A DNA stretch of 64,000 nt from Gordonia heveisoli (GTDB taxonomy: Bacteria > Actinomycetota > Actinomycetes > Mycobacteriales > Mycobacteriaceae): the NCBI RefSeq assembly GCF_030315745.1, contig NZ_JASXSH010000016.1:1-64000 (forward strand), written 5' to 3'. A program made the position numbers and the translations under genes. The notes beneath the pieces were generated by a model. It saw only the letters and a program-made list of their open reading frames with translations. It ran no database searches and was not told where the DNA came from. Positions 52,886 to 60,743 of the stretch are shown here, in pieces; positions within the stretch are counted from its first letter, which is position 1, and the number at the start of each line of letters is the position of its first letter.

Positions 52886-52911
52886 CCCACCCCGACCCGA
52901 CCGCCACCCCA

Positions 52912-53016
52912 CCCGAAACTAGGGGACGAACATTCCTCCCCCACTTTCGCGTTCATCCCCCAACTACAACTAGCCGAACAACCCACACCTAGGGGACGAA
53001 CTCGTCCCCTACTTTC
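52912..53016. repeat. 105-bp intergenic repeat family B, copy 1
   Basis: It begins with CCCGAAACTAGGGGACGAAC and ends with CGTCCCCTACTTTC. It is repeated at 53030-53134 with one substitution (CGCGTT versus CACGTT). It contains a 10-bp inverted repeat (52990-52999 with 53002-53011, arms TAGGGGACGA / TCGTCCCCTA, two-base loop) and a degenerate version of the same dyad near its start. No coding signal is seen. Confidence 0.9.
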
Positions 53017-53029
53017 AGGACCCACCCCG

Positions 53030-53134
53030 CCCGAAACTAGGGGACGAACATTCCTCCCCCACTTTCACGTTCATCCCCCAACTACAACTAGCCGAACAAC
53101 CCACACCTAGGGGACGAACTCGTCCCCTACTTTC
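53030..53134. repeat. 105-bp intergenic repeat family B, copy 2
   Basis: This is the second copy of the 105-bp unit (period 118 bp). Its near-perfect dyad is at 53108-53117 / 53120-53129. It ends ten bases before the stop codon of the SDR gene (minus strand), so its hairpin could terminate SDR transcription. The two copies fill the space between the lipoprotein and SDR genes. Confidence 0.9.
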
Positions 53135-53921: not shown

Positions 53922-54977
53922 TCACGCCGTCCAAGCCGTCAGTCGGAGTGCGTCGATGAGGGTGTCGGTCGACTCGGCGTCGCCGACGGTGAGCCGCAGC
54001 CCGTACTTCCCGCATCGCTTGCCGATCACCCCGACGCTGGCCAGCAGTCGCCCGACCTGCAGGCCGTCGTCGCCGGGTAGGAACACGAAGTTGCCCTGCC
54101 CGGGCAGCGGCGGCGATCCGATCTCGGTCAGTCGTCGTGCCAATCGATCACGTTCGGCGCGAATCGCTTTGACGCGTTCATCCAATTCCGCGCGGGCGGC
54201 CAGAGCCACCGGGACCGCGGCGGTGGCCGCGGGGGCGATCCCGAACGGGATCTCCCAGGTCCGCAGTGCCGCCGCGATCACCGGGTCGGCGATCGCGTAG
54301 CCCACGCGCAACGCCGCCAGGCCGTAGGCCTTCGAGAATGTGCGTATCGCGATCAGATTCCGATGGCGGCGCAACAGTGCCACCACGTCGATCGGATCGT
54401 CGCAGAACTCCCGGTACGCCTCGTCGAAGAGCACCGGCACGCTCGGCGGCACGTCGTCGAGGAAGTCCCGCAGCTCGACGTCGGCGATCACCGCCCCGGT
54501 CGGATTGTGCGGCGAACACAGGACCACCGCCGCGGTATCCGGCCCGACGGACCGTGCGAGCCCGTCGAGATCGACGCCCCCGGCGGGGGTGAGTGCGACC
54601 TCAGCCACTCCCATCCGCAGCATCCCGGCCAGGATCGGATAACCGTCGAAGGTCGGGATCGCAGTCGCCAGCTCTGGAACCTCGACGCCGCGGGCGCGCG
54701 CACGCCGCCGTGCCTCGGACAGAATCATCCCGGCTACGCCGGTCGCACCGGCCCCGATGCTCAGCCAGTGCGCCGGCAACCCGAGATGTGCGGCGATCAT
54801 CTCGCGCAGCCGATCCGGCAGGAAGTCGGGGTAGCGGTTGACCCGGCTGATGTCGCTTGCCAGTGCGTCCTCGACCGCGGGCAGCGGCCCGAACGGGGAT
54901 TCGTTGAGATCCAACCGGATCCGGCGATCGCGGGTTCGGGAAGGGGTGACCGCTTGCGGCGGGACCAGCAACGTCAT
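53922..54977 (-). CDS. PLP-dependent aminotransferase, class I/II (HisC/CobC-like)
   Basis: The 351-aa fold-type I PLP enzyme has RLDLNESPFGPLPAVEDAL, LCSPHNPTGAVI, FDEAYREF (Asp185, Tyr188), TFSKAYGLAALRVGYA with the Schiff-base lysine at residue 216, and C-terminal GLRLTVGDAE with the carboxylate-binding arginine. It resembles histidinol-phosphate aminotransferases and threonine-phosphate decarboxylases. There is no histidine or cobalamin operon around it. It is the last gene of a four-gene operon, and its ATG overlaps the KAS III-like stop (ATGA). It would aminate or decarboxylate the operon's product. Confidence 0.87.
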   Translation of the reverse strand: MTLLVPPQAVTPSRTRDRRIRLDLNESPFGPLPAVEDALASDISRVNRYPDFLPDRLREMIAAHLGLPAHWLSIGAGATGVAGMILSEARRRARARGVEVPELATAIPTFDGYPILAGMLRMGVAEVALTPAGGVDLDGLARSVGPDTAAVVLCSPHNPTGAVIADVELRDFLDDVPPSVPVLFDEAYREFCDDPIDVVALLRRHRNLIAIRTFSKAYGLAALRVGYAIADPVIAAALRTWEIPFGIAPAATAAVPVALAARAELDERVKAIRAERDRLARRLTEIGSPPLPGQGNFVFLPGDDGLQVGRLLASVGVIGKRCGKYGLRLTVGDAESTDTLIDALRLTAWTA

Positions 54978-56000
54978 CGGCCCATCCATCTGATCGCGGC
55001 CGCACCCGCGAAATCTCCGGCGTGGGCGAAGGCCGCGGTCATCACCACATCGCCGGGGGCGATCCGCCAGTCCTCGATCGCCGCGTCCAGGGTGACCGGG
55101 ATGCCGACACCGAACAGGTTTCCGCATTCGTCGAAGGTGTCCGGATGACGTTCGGCGGGCAGTTCCAGCGCTTCGCGCCAGTTGCGCAGGAAGATCCGGT
55201 TGGGCTGGTTGGTGATCAGCCAGTCCAGATCGGGTGGGGCAATCCCCACCTCGTCGGCCACCTCGATCGCCGTCTCCGGGACCATCCGGTTCCCACGGGC
55301 GAGAACCTTGATGATCTTGGCGTCGGTGAATCCGATGTGGATCTGCCCCGAACCCGCCTCCCAGTACTTGCGGTCGGGTTCGGCGGCGGCCACCACTGTC
55401 GCCCGAGTACTGACCGTAGGAGTGGCAGCGTGAGCCCAGAACGGGGCTACCCCTGGACATGTCGGCGGTCACCACGGCCATGGCCGCACCATCTCCGGGT
55501 ATCGCGGCCTGCGGCTTGCCCCGAACCCGACTCTGGGTGAACACCTGCGACGCACTGTTCTGCGCCAGTGCGATGATCGCCCGGCGACCGGCTCCGCCGT
55601 GTATCAGCGCGGCAGCCAGCTCGATCATGTACACGAAAGCCGCACACCCGCCGTTGTGGACGTCGAGCACCACATTCGGGCGTAGACCGAGGCGATGGGC
55701 GAGTTCACCACCGCATCCGCGCACCGGGACCTCCGGCAATTGACTGTGCGTGAGCACGATGTCGGCGGAGTCGAGGAAGTCGTCGCCGTGCCTGCTCTGC
55801 AACCTGCGCGCCGCGGCGAGCATCATGTCCGCCGACGTTTCTCCCTCGGCGGCATGGTGACGGAATGCGGGCGGGGCGAACATCGGGTTGCCGCTCAGCC
55901 GATCGTCCTCCGCGAACTCGGCGAAATATGATGCGGGGACCCGTTTTTCCGGTAGATATCCGGCGACGTCGAGTAGTGCGACAGGTGCGACGCCGATCAT
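54974..56000 (-). pseudogene. KAS III (FabH)-like ketosynthase, interrupted by a one-base frameshift
   Basis: The ATG at 56000 opens 201 codons containing DVHNGGCAAFVYMIE (active-site Cys119), PGDGAAMAVV and SPVLGSRCHSYGQYSGD. The reading frame then leaves the family pattern. The remaining 140 residues (MVAAAEPDRKYWEAGSGQ, NQPNRIFLRNW, CGNLFGVGIPVTLD) continue in another frame from 55396. Removing one G from GACAGTGGTGG (55390-55400) joins the two into a 341-aa protein of normal family length. The canonical His of HQAN is Asn (NQPN), so catalysis is altered even if the gene is intact. The start overlaps the upstream stop (ATGA). It could be a recent pseudogene, a sequencing error or programmed frameshifting. 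Confidence 0.85.
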
Positions 56001-56662
56001 CGGCTCATCCATTCTGGTGTCAGGGGCAGGCCGTGGGAGTGCCGGTACTCGGCGATCGCGGTGATGTTGTCGAGTTCGATCTGGTGGCCGATGTTGAACA
56101 TCCCCCAGTGGTCGCCGACCCACTCCTCGCGTGCGGGTGGGGCGAGTTCGGGAAAGGGGTTCTCGTCGTAGAACGGGTGACGGCAGTTGTTCCACAGCAC
56201 CACCGATCCCGGCTTGTTCAACACGATCTGCGCGTCGACGACCCGCATCAGATAGATCATCCAGAGGTGTTGGCCCTGATCCCACGCACAGTGATAGTCG
56301 ACGGTCATCACATGCGGATCGCATTCGGTGCGAACATAGATTTCGGTGTCCTCGCCGAGGCGGTCGTACGCGTGCCACAGGCCGGGTTCGTCGGTGGTCG
56401 TGAAATCGCGCAATCCGTATGTCCACTCGCTCAGGGCGCGGGTATCGGCCAGCCATTCGTACAACGGACGCGGTGGTGCGTCGACGTAGCCCTGGACCGG
56501 ACAGAAGTCGCCGTAGATCGCGTCATGCGGATAGACGGATCGGATCCGTTCGGCGACAATCGGTTCCGCCACCGGTCTGGGGTGGGTCTCGATCCTGGTC
56601 AGCCCGGGTAGCGTGGCCGCGTCGTCGCCGAGGTCGTTCAGCATGGGATAGACGGTGGTCAT
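55997..56662 (-). CDS. SRPBCC/polyketide cyclase-like protein
   Basis: The 221-aa product contains YEWLADTRALSEWTYGLRDF, a pattern of the START/SRPBCC ligand-binding fold, then RTECDPHVMTVDYHCAWDQG and a Trp/His-rich C-terminal half (VVLWNNCRHPFYDENPFPEL; WGMFNIGHQIELDN). It probably binds the pathway intermediate or directs cyclisation. No exact family is recognised, and the C-terminal half is unusual. It lies four bases after the ThDP enzyme gene. Confidence 0.6.
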   Translation of the reverse strand: MTTVYPMLNDLGDDAATLPGLTRIETHPRPVAEPIVAERIRSVYPHDAIYGDFCPVQGYVDAPPRPLYEWLADTRALSEWTYGLRDFTTTDEPGLWHAYDRLGEDTEIYVRTECDPHVMTVDYHCAWDQGQHLWMIYLMRVVDAQIVLNKPGSVVLWNNCRHPFYDENPFPELAPPAREEWVGDHWGMFNIGHQIELDNITAIAEYRHSHGLPLTPEWMSR

Positions 56663-56666
56663 CAGG

Positions 56667-58442
56667 TCACCTCTCGTTGAGAAACGGTGCGAATGGGGGG
56701 ATCTCGTCGGGATCGACGTCGATGACGAGACAGTTGGGGCCGTCGGCGGTCAGCAGATCCGCACTCGCGGCCCGCAGTAGCAGCGGATCGTGACTGGTGC
56801 GAACGTCCAGGCCGGGGAACATGGCCGCGAGGCCGGGTGCGAAATCGGTGTGCCCGAAACGGTTCAGGCTCGGGGTGCCAGGGAAGAACTGCTTCTCCCG
56901 CGTGATGCACATACCGTGCGCATCGTTGTTCAGGATCACCAGCGTCACCGGCGCGGAGTACTCGATCGCGGTGTGGATCTCCATGCCGTGCATGAAGAAT
57001 GCGCCGTCGCCGGCGATCACGACGGTGCGTCGTGGCTGTCGCCGATGGGCGACGCTGGCCGAGATGGCATATCCGACCCCGGCGGCGATGGCGTATCCCA
57101 TCCCGCCCATCCCGAGCGCGACGGTGAAACGTCCAGGACCGAACGGCAAGTGATGGGTGGCGGCGGCGCCGGCGTTGCCCGCGTCGGCGAAGACCGCACA
57201 TCCCGGCGGCATCGACGCACCGACGATCTCGATCGCCCGACGCAGCGACAGTCGGGTACCGGTGTCGTGGCTCGGTACGGCCAAGGAGGTGCGGACGGCT
57301 GCCGGTCGACGCCCTGGTTCCAGACCGGAGTCACGCAACGCCTCCGACAACCGGTGCAGCGCGGCAGGCAGATCCGGGCATTCGATCGACGACGACCCCT
57401 CCCCGCCGGTGCCCTCGGGTGGACGCGGGGCCGCCCGGCCGAGATGGACGACCGGCCGCTCGGCGAGCAGGTCGTCGAGGCCGAACCGGTCGGTCACCGA
57501 CATCCGGCACCCGATCGACAGGACCACGTCGGCCTCGGCAATCGCCCGCCGCGCCGACGGATGTCCCATCACGCCGGTCACACCGGCACAGGACCGGACG
57601 TCCCCGACCGCATCCCGGCCACCGGGGGACGCCACCGTTTGTGCACCGAGTTGGGCTGCCAGTAGGTCGATCTCGTTGCCGAGACGTCCGACGGAAGCCT
57701 CCTCGCCGACCCACACACAGATGGTCCGCCCTCTTCCACGCAGTCGGGCGAGTTCGGCGGCCAGCGCCCCGATCTCCCGGTCCGGGAAGGGTTCCGGTGT
57801 CGTCATCCACTCGTGCGCAGCCGCGCCGATGACCGCATCGGACGCCTGGACATCGCGCGGGATCGCCAGTGCTGCCGGATATCCCGAAGCCAGTGTGGCT
57901 GCCGCCCTGCACATCGCAGCATCGACCTCGCGCGCGTCACGGATGATCTCGCAGGACCCGACCACCCCCGACAGGGTGGTGAGGAAATCGATGGTGTCCG
58001 GCGGCGTGAGCATGTCCTGGAAGGCACCCGCACCGGTCAGCGCGCACGGCGGCATCCCGATCAGCGCGAGCACCGGGACCCGGCTGTCGTAGGACTCGGC
58101 CAGCGCCGGCAGCACATTCATCGCACCGCCACCCGACGTGGTGATCACCGCACCATATCCGCCGGTGATCCGGGCGGTGCCGTCGGCCATGGCACCGGCG
58201 GCGAATTCGTGTTTGGCCACCACCGGGGCCATCCCCGGCGCTCGGACCGCGGCGTCGTAGATGTGCTCGATGTTTGCGCCGTGGACCCCGAAGATGACCG
58301 GGATGTCGAGCCCGCGGAGGAGGTCGACCAGGTGGTCGGCCACCGACCGGGTGGTGTCCGCCTCGGCAACACCCCGTCGGGGTACGTCCCGCGTGGGGGC
58401 ACGCTGCCGTCTGACGCTCTGGTGGGAGGCAATCGCTGTCAT
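56667..58442 (-). CDS. ThDP-dependent enzyme, acetolactate synthase / benzoylformate decarboxylase superfamily
   Basis: The 591-aa three-domain enzyme has an N-terminal PYR domain with catalytic Glu79 (VAKHEFAAGAMADG), a central domain with VLSIGCRMSVTDRF, and a C-terminal PP domain. The PP domain has the ThDP motif GDGAFFMHGMEIHTA (GDG at 478-480) through VTLVILNN (about 505-506). It would decarboxylate a 2-keto acid or join an acyl unit by carboligation. It is not the housekeeping acetolactate synthase, since no ilvN or ilvC is nearby. It is the first gene of the four-gene operon. The ATG at 58442 is preferred over 58463. Confidence 0.88.
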   Translation of the reverse strand: MTAIASHQSVRRQRAPTRDVPRRGVAEADTTRSVADHLVDLLRGLDIPVIFGVHGANIEHIYDAAVRAPGMAPVVAKHEFAAGAMADGTARITGGYGAVITTSGGGAMNVLPALAESYDSRVPVLALIGMPPCALTGAGAFQDMLTPPDTIDFLTTLSGVVGSCEIIRDAREVDAAMCRAAATLASGYPAALAIPRDVQASDAVIGAAAHEWMTTPEPFPDREIGALAAELARLRGRGRTICVWVGEEASVGRLGNEIDLLAAQLGAQTVASPGGRDAVGDVRSCAGVTGVMGHPSARRAIAEADVVLSIGCRMSVTDRFGLDDLLAERPVVHLGRAAPRPPEGTGGEGSSSIECPDLPAALHRLSEALRDSGLEPGRRPAAVRTSLAVPSHDTGTRLSLRRAIEIVGASMPPGCAVFADAGNAGAAATHHLPFGPGRFTVALGMGGMGYAIAAGVGYAISASVAHRRQPRRTVVIAGDGAFFMHGMEIHTAIEYSAPVTLVILNNDAHGMCITREKQFFPGTPSLNRFGHTDFAPGLAAMFPGLDVRTSHDPLLLRAASADLLTADGPNCLVIDVDPDEIPPFAPFLNER

Positions 58443-58465
58443 GTGCCCACAGTGCGCCCACACAC

Positions 58466-58482
58466 CTGAAGGTTCACTGAAG
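58466..58482. promoter_or_regulatory. Phased direct repeat upstream of the ThDP operon
   Basis: CTGAAG occurs at 58466-58471 and 58477-58482, exactly 11 bp apart, 24 bp upstream of the ThDP enzyme start and about 100 bp upstream of the histidine kinase gene. OmpR-type response regulators bind 11-bp-phased direct repeats, and one is encoded nearby. Confidence 0.35.
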
Positions 58483-58584: not shown

Positions 58585-60093
58585 ATGAGCGGATCATCGT
58601 CCGGCGCTTCGGCGTCGCGGTCGGCGGGATTCCGAAAGCTGTTCCGCCGCAACCAGGGTGTGCGCGCGCGATCGACGATCGTGGGTACCGTCCTGCTCAC
58701 GGTGGCGCTGGCGATCGGCGCGGCGGTGATGCTGGTCATGCTCGATCGCACCAACAACCGCACCATGTACAACGCGACCAACTACCACGCGTACGAGCTG
58801 GCCGAGATGATCCGCAGCGGCGGCGTCGCCTCCATTCCGGCCAACGAACTCGTCGCCGGCAGTGGCGGCGCGGACATGATTCAGGTGGTCGACGCGCACG
58901 GCCGGATCGTCGCGGCCTCACCCAACGCGCCCGCCGTCCCCCTCTCCGACGCGAACCCGGCGGGCGGTGGGGCATCCTCGATCTCCGGGCCGATGGTTCC
59001 CGGCGACGACACCACCTATTGCGGCACCGTCGTCACCGCGGTGTTCGGGGATCAGCAGTATCGCGTGATCGCCGTCATCTCCGCCGAACCCTTTCGTCAG
59101 TCGCTGCTCAATACGGCCATCATCCTGGCCATCGAATTGCCGATCCTGATCGGCCTCGCGGCCATCGCCATCTACTATTTCGCCGGTCGCGCGATGCGCC
59201 CGGTCGGGCGAATCACCTCCCAGGTCAACGCGATCACCTCGTCGGATCTCTCCCGCCGGGTCCCGGTACCCACCACCGACGACGAGATCACCCGGCTGGC
59301 GACGACGATGAACGAGATGCTCGACCGCCTCGACCGCGGTCGGCATGCGCAGCTGCGGTTCATCGGCGACGCCTCCCACGAGATGCGCAGTCCGCTCACC
59401 ACGATCGTCGGGATGCTCGATCTCGCCGACTGCACGGACTCGGCCATCGACCTCGACACCGTCCGCACGATCCTGCTGCCCGAGGCGCAGCGGATGCAGA
59501 AGATGGTCGAAGACCTGCTACTGCTCGCACGTGCCGACGAGTCCGGCCTCGGTCTGACGATCCGCGACGTGGATCTCGACGATCTGGTCACCGCGGAGGT
59601 CCGGCGGATCCGATCGCTCGGCCTGGCGACGGTCACCGCGACGATCATGCCGATCCGCGTGTCGGGTGACCCGGAGAAGTTGGGCCGCGCCCTGCGCAAC
59701 CTCACCGAGAACGCCATCGCGCACGCCTCGACGACGGTCGGTGTGCACATGTCGGTCGACCCCGAAGGCGGGCTGGCCCGCATCTCCGTCGCCGACGACG
59801 GCCCCGGAATCCCGCTCGCGTCCCGAACCGCCGTCTTCGAGCGATTCACCCGGCTCCGCCCCGATCGTCGTACCGCCGACGGTTGCGGGCTGGGACTCTC
59901 GATCGTGCACGAGATCGTTCGCGCACACGGTGGCACGGTCGAGGTCGTCGGTCCGTCGCCCGGATTCACCCACGGTGCCACCTTCGTCATCACCCTCGAC
60001 GTGCCCGACGCACCGTCCGATGAATCGACCGACACATCCACGGCGGGGCGCCCGGCCTCCGAGAGTTCGACTCAGATGGCGCGCAGGCGATAG
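58585..60093 (+). CDS. Sensor histidine kinase
   Basis: The 502-aa product has TM1 at about residues 31-54, an extracytoplasmic sensor of about 120 residues, and TM2 at about 177-200. HAMP follows (RPVGRITSQVNAITSSDL), then HisKA (RFIGDASHEMRSPLTTIVG, His265) and HATPase_c (NLTENAIAHA, DDGPGIP, GCGLGLSIVHEIV). The ATG at 58585 has GAGGAG upstream. TACGAT at about 58525 may be its -10. Unusually it converges on its probable partner response regulator, with their 3' ends overlapping by 22 bases. Confidence 0.93.
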   Translation: MSGSSSGASASRSAGFRKLFRRNQGVRARSTIVGTVLLTVALAIGAAVMLVMLDRTNNRTMYNATNYHAYELAEMIRSGGVASIPANELVAGSGGADMIQVVDAHGRIVAASPNAPAVPLSDANPAGGGASSISGPMVPGDDTTYCGTVVTAVFGDQQYRVIAVISAEPFRQSLLNTAIILAIELPILIGLAAIAIYYFAGRAMRPVGRITSQVNAITSSDLSRRVPVPTTDDEITRLATTMNEMLDRLDRGRHAQLRFIGDASHEMRSPLTTIVGMLDLADCTDSAIDLDTVRTILLPEAQRMQKMVEDLLLLARADESGLGLTIRDVDLDDLVTAEVRRIRSLGLATVTATIMPIRVSGDPEKLGRALRNLTENAIAHASTTVGVHMSVDPEGGLARISVADDGPGIPLASRTAVFERFTRLRPDRRTADGCGLGLSIVHEIVRAHGGTVEVVGPSPGFTHGATFVITLDVPDAPSDESTDTSTAGRPASESSTQMARRR

Positions 60094-60743
60094 CCCGCAC
60101 CACGCACGGTCTCGATGGACCGGACCCCGAACGGTGCGTCGATCCGCTTGCGCAGATAGCCGACATACACCTCGACGATGTTGGGGTCGCCCTCGAAGTT
60201 CTGATCCCACACCGAATGCAGGATCTCAGTCTTGGAGACCACCGTGTCGTGGTTACGGATCAGAAACTCAAGGACTGCGAATTCCCTTGGGGTCAGCTCG
60301 ATCTGGCGGCCGTCTCGGGTGACGGTGTGATTGGCCGGGTCGACGACCAGTCCACCGGCGACCAACTGCGCAGGCCGCTCCGGCGCACCGCGTCGCAACA
60401 GTGCACGCAGCCGCGCCATCAGCACGACCACGGAGAAGGGTTTGACGAGGTAGTCGTCGGCGCCACAATCGAGGGCCTCCGCCTGATCGTATTCGCCGTC
60501 CTTGGCGGTCAGCATCAGCACCGGGGTCCAGATCTCGCGGGAGCGCATCTCGTCGAGCACCCGATAGCCGTTGAGCCGGGGCAACATGATGTCGAGGACG
60601 ATGACGTCGAACTCACCCTCCGTGGCCCGCCACAACCCGTCGACCCCGTTGTCGGACAACGTGACCGCCCAACCGTCGGCGGTCAGTGCCCGACGCACGG
60701 TCTCGGCGACCCGCGGGTCGTCGTCGACGACGAGTGCGTGCAC
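60072..60743 (-). CDS. OmpR/PhoB-family response regulator
   Basis: The 223-aa product has a receiver domain with VDDDP (acidic triad), phospho-acceptor Asp51 in VIVLDIMLPRLNGY and LVKPF (Lys101). A winged-helix DNA-binding domain (ELTPREFAVLEFLIRNHDTV; NIVEVYVGYLRKRID; VRGAGYRL) follows. It is the probable partner of the histidine kinase at 58585-60093, which converges on it. It does not resemble MprA closely. It lies nine bases downstream of the Fpg/Nei gene on the same strand and may be co-transcribed with it. Confidence 0.95.
   Translation of the reverse strand: MHALVVDDDPRVAETVRRALTADGWAVTLSDNGVDGLWRATEGEFDVIVLDIMLPRLNGYRVLDEMRSREIWTPVLMLTAKDGEYDQAEALDCGADDYLVKPFSVVVLMARLRALLRRGAPERPAQLVAGGLVVDPANHTVTRDGRQIELTPREFAVLEFLIRNHDTVVSKTEILHSVWDQNFEGDPNIVEVYVGYLRKRIDAPFGVRSIETVRGAGYRLRAI

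Follow-up and report, generated by a model that had tools for sequence, protein, structure and literature searches.

A carbazole-core-like operon of a separate lineage in Gordonia heveisoli, with a frameshifted ketosynthase gene and relatives in Mycobacterium, Nocardia and Tsukamurella

What could be made by four tightly packed genes on the minus strand of a Gordonia heveisoli contig, and is the gene set as unfamiliar as it seemed at first sight? The DNA analysed, hereafter the window, is a stretch of 64,000 nucleotides (nt) covering positions 1 to 64,000 of contig NZ_JASXSH010000016.1 (assembly GCF_030315745.1). An earlier note, made from the letters of the window, had placed at 53922–58442 (minus strand) a four-gene operon for a thiamine diphosphate (ThDP) enzyme, an SRPBCC protein, a ketoacyl synthase (KAS) III-like enzyme and an aminotransferase; the four genes were found there, and the domain matches agree:

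56667–58442, minus strand: ThDP-dependent carboligase, relative of NzsH/CqsB3, predicted alpha-hydroxy-beta-keto acid synthase (Pfam TPP_enzyme N/M/C)
55997–56662, minus strand: SRPBCC (Bet v1-like) cyclase of the CqsB2 carbazole synthase family (PDB match 6ipv)
54974–56000, minus strand: KAS III-like gene, whole region (ACP_syn_III and ACP_syn_III_C)
53922–54977, minus strand: HisC-like fold-type I aminotransferase, predicted to convert tryptophan to indole-3-pyruvate (Aminotran_1_2)

The layout, with a 4-bp gap followed by two ATGA overlaps, is that of one transcription unit, as had been proposed. The housekeeping names acetolactate synthase, FabH and HisC were rejected, as the NCBIfam scores were far under the cut-offs (acolac_lg 153.6 against 538, hisC 206.5 against 276.6, and 48.7 against 249 for the N-terminal piece of the KAS with PRK09352). 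Pfam and NCBIfam models gave no match to the SRPBCC protein at E ≤ 0.001, and its sole PDB relative at E ≤ 1 was CqsB2 (6ipv, E 3e-42), the carbazole synthase of carquinostatin biosynthesis. The mechanism residues Y144, Y172, H206 and E209 of CqsB2 correspond to Y137, Y165, H193 and E196 of the window cyclase, so that all are shared save one, the position of E105 being occupied by D100. The ThDP enzyme was 33–34% identical by BLAST (204–219 bits) to those of five cqs/nzs-like loci, 33–38% over all comparisons with such enzymes, and has the GANIE and NN..H.MC blocks in common with them. According to passages of a 2020 review (PMC7466098), the carbazole pathway begins with the aminotransferase CqsB7, which yields indole-3-pyruvate; the ThDP enzyme CqsB3/NzsH couples this with pyruvate to a product that the KAS III-like CqsB1/NzsJ condenses with 3-hydroxybutyryl-acyl carrier protein (ACP), and ring A is closed by CqsB2/NzsI. 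Homologues of the ThDP enzyme, the cyclase and the KAS III-like enzyme are grouped with an aminotransferase in the carquinostatin (CqsB1, B2, B3, B7) and neocarazostatin (NzsJ, I, H, D) systems of Streptomyces, and the chlocarbazomycin cluster, in the passages seen of PMC10100901, has the same four, including a “histidinol-phosphate transaminase” and an “SRPBCC family protein”. Because of the CqsB2 match and the same four activities in published pathways, the set can no longer be called undescribed: the earlier note knew no described system with it, and it appears to be the carbazole core of carquinostatin and neocarazostatin, in a lineage that is new. ScyA of scytonemin biosynthesis and the sattazolin enzymes have a similar ThDP carboligation chemistry, forming acyloins on indole-3-pyruvate, but the passages of PMC9822442 that deal with them name no CqsB2-type cyclase.

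How the window operon relates to this core was examined among relatives of the cyclase. A scan of GTDB genomes returned 484 of these, the best 80 of which were taken; loci and genomes are designated below by L and G numbers, respectively. The genes of the loci come from our own crude gene caller, by which some starts are wrong, and three contigs were taken twice (L037/L234, L073/L241, L087/L214), which inflates the gene-order, promoter/repeat, KAS-residue, cyclase-residue and 124-locus counts by up to three. The cqs/nzs side consisted of CqsB2 plus Embleya and other loci of that layout. Four of the five CqsB2 mechanism residues were identical in all 122 family members read, while the fifth was either Glu (six members: L032, L230–L233 and L250) or Asp (116). 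The catalytic His of the KAS is kept in L032, L230–L233 and a classical KAS III; it is Asn in 115 rows, including the C-terminal piece of the window, where the earlier note had already seen that this His was altered. The Cys and the second Asn are retained wherever readable, so the triad is Cys-Asn-Asn in the window lineage as against Cys-His-Asn in the cqs/nzs type. The two changes were paired in all 117 loci in which both enzymes were read (Asp with Asn in 112, Glu with His in five, mixed in none); L035 (Asp) has a gap in the KAS, and L250 (Glu) has no KAS beside the cyclase.

The gene order differs likewise, being ThDP enzyme, cyclase, KAS, aminotransferase in the window type, which occurs in loci of Streptomyces, Nocardia, Mycobacterium and Gordonia, and KAS, cyclase, ThDP enzyme in the cqs/nzs-like loci L032 and L230–L233. 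Among the neighbours of the window operon there is no gene for an ACP, a classical KAS III or a prenyltransferase, whereas L230 and L231 carry all three, their extras (a squalene/phytoene-synthase-like protein, a classical KAS III, a small carrier protein and an aminotransferase) giving the nzs/cqs layout. Prenyltransferase-like and KAS III genes are present in L032, and none of the three was seen in L232 and L233. A cyclase tree of 68 rows, built by a quick method, splits L032 and L230–L233 from the rest and groups the window among Gordonia, the exception being L250, a Glu row with a long branch that sits among the Asp rows. The window operon thus shares with the bacterial carbazole core a CqsB2-family cyclase and, by sequence, a ThDP enzyme of the NzsH/CqsB3 kind, but has a KAS with Cys-Asn-Asn, frameshifted in this copy. 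We regard it as a putative carbazole-core cassette of a separate lineage, in which carbazole-type chemistry is likely.

The reading that we consider fairly probable is that of a stress-regulated carbazole-core cassette whose product is most likely a lipid-tailed, lipocarbazole-like carbazole. The aminotransferase would make indole-3-pyruvate from tryptophan, and the KAS III-like enzyme would take up on its Cys an acyl group supplied by primary fatty-acid metabolism and condense it with the acid from the ThDP step, with loss of CO2, after which the CqsB2-like cyclase would close and aromatise the new ring on the indole. Since the operon lacks an ACP, a classical KAS III and a prenyltransferase of its own, the tail would come from the cell's ordinary acyl chains. 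The starting aryl group could also be another one: the sole PDB match of the aminotransferase at E ≤ 1e-30 was a “Putative phenylalanine aminotransferase” (4r2n, E 7e-42), its closest solved relative, and ScyA, another ThDP enzyme, takes 4-hydroxyphenylpyruvate as donor (passages of PMC9822442). If phenylpyruvate or 4-hydroxyphenylpyruvate were used, a naphthol- or benzenoid-type alkyl lipid would be formed, but this seems rather unlikely to us, because NzsH and CqsB3 take indole-3-pyruvate (passages of PMC7466098), indole is by established chemistry a far better nucleophile for ring closure than benzene, and Tsukamurella, in which a TrpB-like gene lies near the operon, makes lipocarbazoles (same source). 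The Asn found in place of His in every readable KAS of the lineage, 115 rows with the window, raises another possibility, namely that this enzyme esterifies the acyloin to give an indole-acyloin ester while the cyclase works on something else. Indole-containing esters were indeed seen with CqsB1 and NzsJ, though the passages of PMC7466098 attribute them to spontaneous rearrangement; the cyclase retains the CqsB2 active-site residues and adjoins the KAS in nearly all loci, and the Asn may suffice because the nucleophile, a free beta-keto acid, would readily lose CO2. We therefore hold the ester to be improbable and keep to the lipid-tailed carbazole.

Does the gene set hold together elsewhere? 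Of 87 loci, the window included, 75 have all four genes grouped on a single strand, which answers positively the co-occurrence test that the earlier note had named, and the identical gene order is repeated in dozens of loci, more than chance would give. The aminotransferase alone was missing in nine of the 87, four of these being Tsukamurella loci and one lying at a contig end. The presence of the aminotransferase in most operons is what could favour a pathway to an aminated acyloin or amino ketone in which this enzyme acts last, as formerly proposed. Since it acts first in the characterised pathway (tryptophan to indole-3-pyruvate; passages of PMC7466098) and 24 of 124 loci, those of Tsukamurella among them, do not have it nearby, such a product is very improbable; the keto acid and acyl thioester suggested as substrates in the same place do agree with the carbazole core pathway. 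Counted as cyclase matches, not as whole operons, the family was found in 164 of 248 Mycobacterium-type and 122 of 148 Nocardia genomes (E ≤ 1e-20), and, at E ≤ 0.001, in 34 of 59 Gordonia (broken copies and the window counted), 15 of 16 Tsukamurella-type and 25 of 295 Streptomyces genomes, as well as in 33 of 298 genomes of the order and 28 of 394 of the class, these two sets overlapping. The Tsukamurella-type genomes were assigned from neighbours shared with G191, and the Mycobacterium-type ones from gene order and tree position. Six plasmid records had cyclase matches; carriage by phages was rejected, as there was no match among 50,697 phage records. In the parts of the open literature covered, with subscription journals largely outside, nothing was found that ties carbazole biosynthesis genes to Mycobacterium, Nocardia, Gordonia, Tsukamurella or SigL.

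The Tsukamurella loci connect the lineage with a known product. Passages of PMC7466098 cite the lipocarbazoles of Tsukamurella pseudospumae Acta 1857, which are antioxidants, group them with the 3-oxygenated carbazoles and describe the machinery for mono-oxygenated carbazoles as unidentified; no lipocarbazole gene cluster is named in the parts covered. The Tsukamurella-type genomes that have the cyclase of this lineage carry it in one place each (in G712 as two adjoining pieces), and over the main stretch these cyclases share 68–72% identity with that of the window, a value typical of this lineage, as compared with the 36–39% between the window cyclase and the cqs/nzs-like ones. In all five fully seen Tsukamurella loci (L031, L074, L089, L096 and L242) a gene annotated as TrpB-like in L031 (PALP domain) lies at most three genes downstream, and in four of the five a flavodoxin-like gene, recognised by a weak Pfam match (27.8 against 27 bits), directly precedes the ThDP gene. 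A lipid-tailed carbazole fits an operon that has no ACP of its own, and from genus and gene content we propose the lineage as candidate machinery for mono-oxygenated carbazoles.

Is the copy in the window itself likely to work? The KAS III-like gene had been read as unbroken, while its two halves proved to lie in different frames with a junction near 55395:

about 55395–56000, minus strand: N-terminal half of the KAS III-like enzyme with the catalytic Cys (ACP_syn_III; 75% identical to the intact KAS of L037)
54974–55396, minus strand: C-terminal half in a different frame, with Asn for the catalytic His (ACP_syn_III_C; 86% identical to L037)
55393–55410, minus strand: approximate site of the frame change, the frames differing on its two sides

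As the N-terminal frame stays open into the aminotransferase frame, giving an open reading frame of 844 amino acids, the break is hidden, which is probably why the gene was taken as intact. In a search of 61 genomes (37 of them Gordonia; E ≤ 1e-60), a KAS of this lineage was present in 22; 26 copies in 21 genomes are single-frame, that of the window alone is in two pieces, and its genome contains no second copy at this threshold. Programmed frameshifting was rejected because the other 26 Gordonia copies are single-frame. Outside Gordonia, the Rhodococcus oxybenzonivorans plasmid locus L035 was the sole one of the 87 loci with KAS halves also in different frames. Unless the frameshift in the KAS gene arose in assembly, the operon copy of the window is probably without function; either early decay or an assembly error would account for its state. 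That the sequencing or assembly is at fault and the operon functional we think doubtful, though well worth bearing in mind. The genome is a draft of 65 contigs, and the KAS pieces look constrained: their differences from L037 are mostly at third codon positions (0.48 and 0.46, compared with 0.08–0.20 at positions 1 and 2), and of two deviations at 82 conserved columns one is merely the artificial start of a piece, leaving a single conserved column truly changed. The ThDP enzyme (2 of 102 columns) and the aminotransferase (0 of 56) look similarly normal. The cyclase, however, deviates at five of 72 conserved columns, as opposed to 0–3 in 18 other Gordonia/Williamsia loci (distant loci reach 12), and broken copies are found elsewhere in Gordonia: the cyclase of G074 and the second one of G667 contain a stop, G655 has three pieces, and G653 has a remnant with the kinase in two pieces.

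How the operon may be controlled differs between the genera. In the window it is flanked by a two-component system:

58585–60093, plus strand: sensor histidine kinase, divergent from the operon (HAMP, HisKA, HATPase_c)
60072–60743, minus strand: OmpR-family response regulator, tail to tail with the kinase (Response_reg and Trans_reg_C)
58466–58481, minus strand: TTCAG-N6-TTCAG direct repeat, a predicted target of the response regulator (found once in the window, against 0.00 times expected)
58449–58454, minus strand: possible −10 element, weak and inferred, 10 nt after the repeat, in a partly conserved GCANNGTTG block (anchored comparison of 16 loci)

The spacing of TTCAG-N6-TTCAG is one bound by OmpR-family regulators. 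In the window the repeat ends 23 nt before the ThDP start codon, and it was found upstream of the ThDP gene in 15 of 17 kinase-linked loci (two of which are the same contig) and before none of 192 other genes in these loci; of the two loci without it, L046 carries a variant differing by one base and L236 is decayed. A close kinase relative was present in 24 of 59 Gordonia genomes, in all 24 on the cyclase contig and at most 3 kb from the cyclase match, with a cut-off (E ≤ 9e-41) that was chosen after the list had been seen: 23 genomes have it at E ≤ 1.4e-45, and in the 24th, G654 (9e-41, 38%), it also lies beside the cyclase. The next matches are a second kinase of G676 (2.6e-40), not beside the cyclase, and one in G693 (1.7e-35), which has no cyclase; this latter value, the best among the 25 Gordonia genomes without a cyclase, is the paralogue level. 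These observations suggest that in many Gordonia and Williamsia the adjoining OmpR-type system could act on the operon via the TTCAG direct repeat. The 3′-ends of the kinase and regulator genes overlap by 22 nt in the window (60072–60093), and by the gene calls such ends overlap in 13 of the 17 kinase-linked loci.

The earlier note had taken the four genes for an accessory insertion, and the insertion stood up while its extent did not. In all 13 cyclase-less Gordonia genomes examined, out of the 25, the genes for Fpg and a short-chain dehydrogenase/reductase (SDR) lie on the same strand, 0.9–3.8 kb apart from start to start, with no operon gene, kinase or regulator between them or elsewhere in the 10–12 kb taken (E ≤ 1e-15); in four of the 13 there is hardly space for another gene, and in nine there is other DNA. 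The accessory block comprises six genes, not four: response regulator, histidine kinase, ThDP enzyme, cyclase, KAS and aminotransferase. Just past the SDR gene of the window, at 52904–53134, there are two 113-nt copies, 98% identical, with starts 118 nt apart, each of which holds the palindrome-like GGGGACGAACTCGTCCCC.

In Mycobacterium and Nocardia another regulator accompanies the operon. Genes whose nearest solved structures are SigL (6dv9, E 2e-62) and RslA (3hug_B, E 1e-16; one Nocardia sequence each) were found within six genes of the operon in 51 of 124 loci (at least one of the pair; 41 Nocardia, ten mycobacterial), and sigL–rslA lies directly upstream on the same strand in 11 loci, ten of them mycobacterial. 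As a SigL-type promoter the pattern TGAACC-N15-17-CGT was used, its first part being what we take to be the SigL −35 element. It occurs upstream of the ThDP gene in 47 of these 51 loci (the misses are L033, L069, L098 and L246). Where a locus lacks both sigL/rslA and the kinase, it precedes the ThDP gene in nine of 51 cases (eight Nocardia, one mycobacterial), and it precedes 14 of 46 sigL genes. Among other genes it was found at five of 604 in the sigL loci and, in the other two groups, at 0 of 645 and one of 192. A strict version ending in CGTGTCA, searched genome-wide, gave ten matches in six of eight genomes, with one match for the reversed control, and in four of the eight (G007, G034, G123, G142) a match is the operon promoter itself. 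The −10 of the 47 promoters is CGTAT in 32, CGTGT in nine and otherwise in six, with mostly CGTAT in Nocardia; the nine resemble P-sigL, whose scaffold, in the passages seen of PMC6372665, starts with CGTGTCAG, the −10 consensus being TGN(C/A)AG. Both the promoter and an adjoining sigL–rslA pair are therefore recognisable from sequence in Nocardia and mycobacterial relatives, the exact −10 in a minority only. RslA binds Zn, and its oxidation leads to a disulfide and a looser hold on SigL (passages of PMC2877774), so in many Mycobacterium and Nocardia the expression of the operon may be tied to stress sensing. The parts of the literature covered do not mention the operon among the targets of SigL. 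It is found between rslA and a MarR-family gene in five mycobacterial loci, in three of these behind secY-adk-map. Since passages of PMC13002591 place the MarR gene rv0737 of M. tuberculosis immediately downstream of sigL-rslA, the MarR gene after the mycobacterial operon is, by position and MarR domain, a likely Rv0737 ortholog, and M. tuberculosis would have no operon at this site, a statement drawn from that gene order and not from a search. SigL control of the window copy was rejected: no SigL-type promoter was found upstream of its ThDP gene, where the TGAACC inside the direct repeat is followed by CGC and not by CGT, and the kinase/regulator pair adjoins the operon instead.

Other surroundings of the operon vary. 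Divergent from it in Nocardia are a gene for an EXLDI protein (42 loci) and an ABC exporter pair (45–47 loci), for example at L058 6663–7178, L056 5496–6464 and L114 4812–5585, and the exporter could move the pathway product. A DJ-1/PfpI-AraC regulator, a third kind of regulator beside the operon, precedes it in ten Streptomyces loci (L216–L225, e.g. L219 5938–6933). On the plasmids L034 and L036 genes annotated as hemerythrin-domain adjoin the operon copies, which may hint at oxygen or nitric oxide sensing; a relative of the L034 gene lies near L240 and L228. L059, a contig filed as Acidobacteriaceae, has a Gordonia/Tsukamurella-like operon with kinase and regulator and is probably misbinned. 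G1060 and G1095, of a Mycobacterium-type genus and 3.3 Mb in one contig each, gave weak, remnant-like cyclase matches (E 1.2e-25 and 5e-24).

Several points weigh against the stress-regulated, lipid-tailed carbazole. The identity to the cqs/nzs-like enzymes quoted above is low for cyclase and ThDP enzyme alike, and as both the KAS His and the cyclase Glu105 are replaced, the chemistry may differ. The aminotransferase, whose nearest solved relative leaves the aryl group open, is apparently not indispensable, since the 24 loci mentioned, including all five of Tsukamurella, have none within six genes. The lipocarbazole link is one of genus rather than strain, the comparison set containing no genome named T. 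pseudospumae. As to regulation, a close kinase relative is absent from ten of the 34 cyclase-bearing Gordonia genomes, and most SigL-type −10 elements differ from the published one at the position where its specificity is highest. The product itself, what the paired Asn and Asp do, and control by redox state are all matters of inference.

For the window alone the lesson is a smaller one, that of an accessory operon, probably inactive, with a broken gene masked by a long open frame. For the family a wider proposal can be put forward, tentatively and with more doubt than confidence: most Mycobacterium and Nocardia species may hold a SigL/RslA-controlled, oxidation-induced pathway to lipid-tailed carbazoles that serve as membrane antioxidants; driving it may have been the original job of SigL–RslA, with M. 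tuberculosis keeping the switch only (the absence of the pathway there was not searched for), and the Asn/Asp pair may be part of the missing machinery for mono-oxygenated carbazoles. If the carbazole reading is right, a gene cassette so far described from a handful of Streptomyces would count among the more frequent operons for specialised metabolites in Mycobacterium, Nocardia, Tsukamurella and Gordonia, candidate genes would be at hand for the lipocarbazoles and for the mono-oxygenated carbazole machinery, and the redox-sensitive SigL–RslA switch would have a concrete output.

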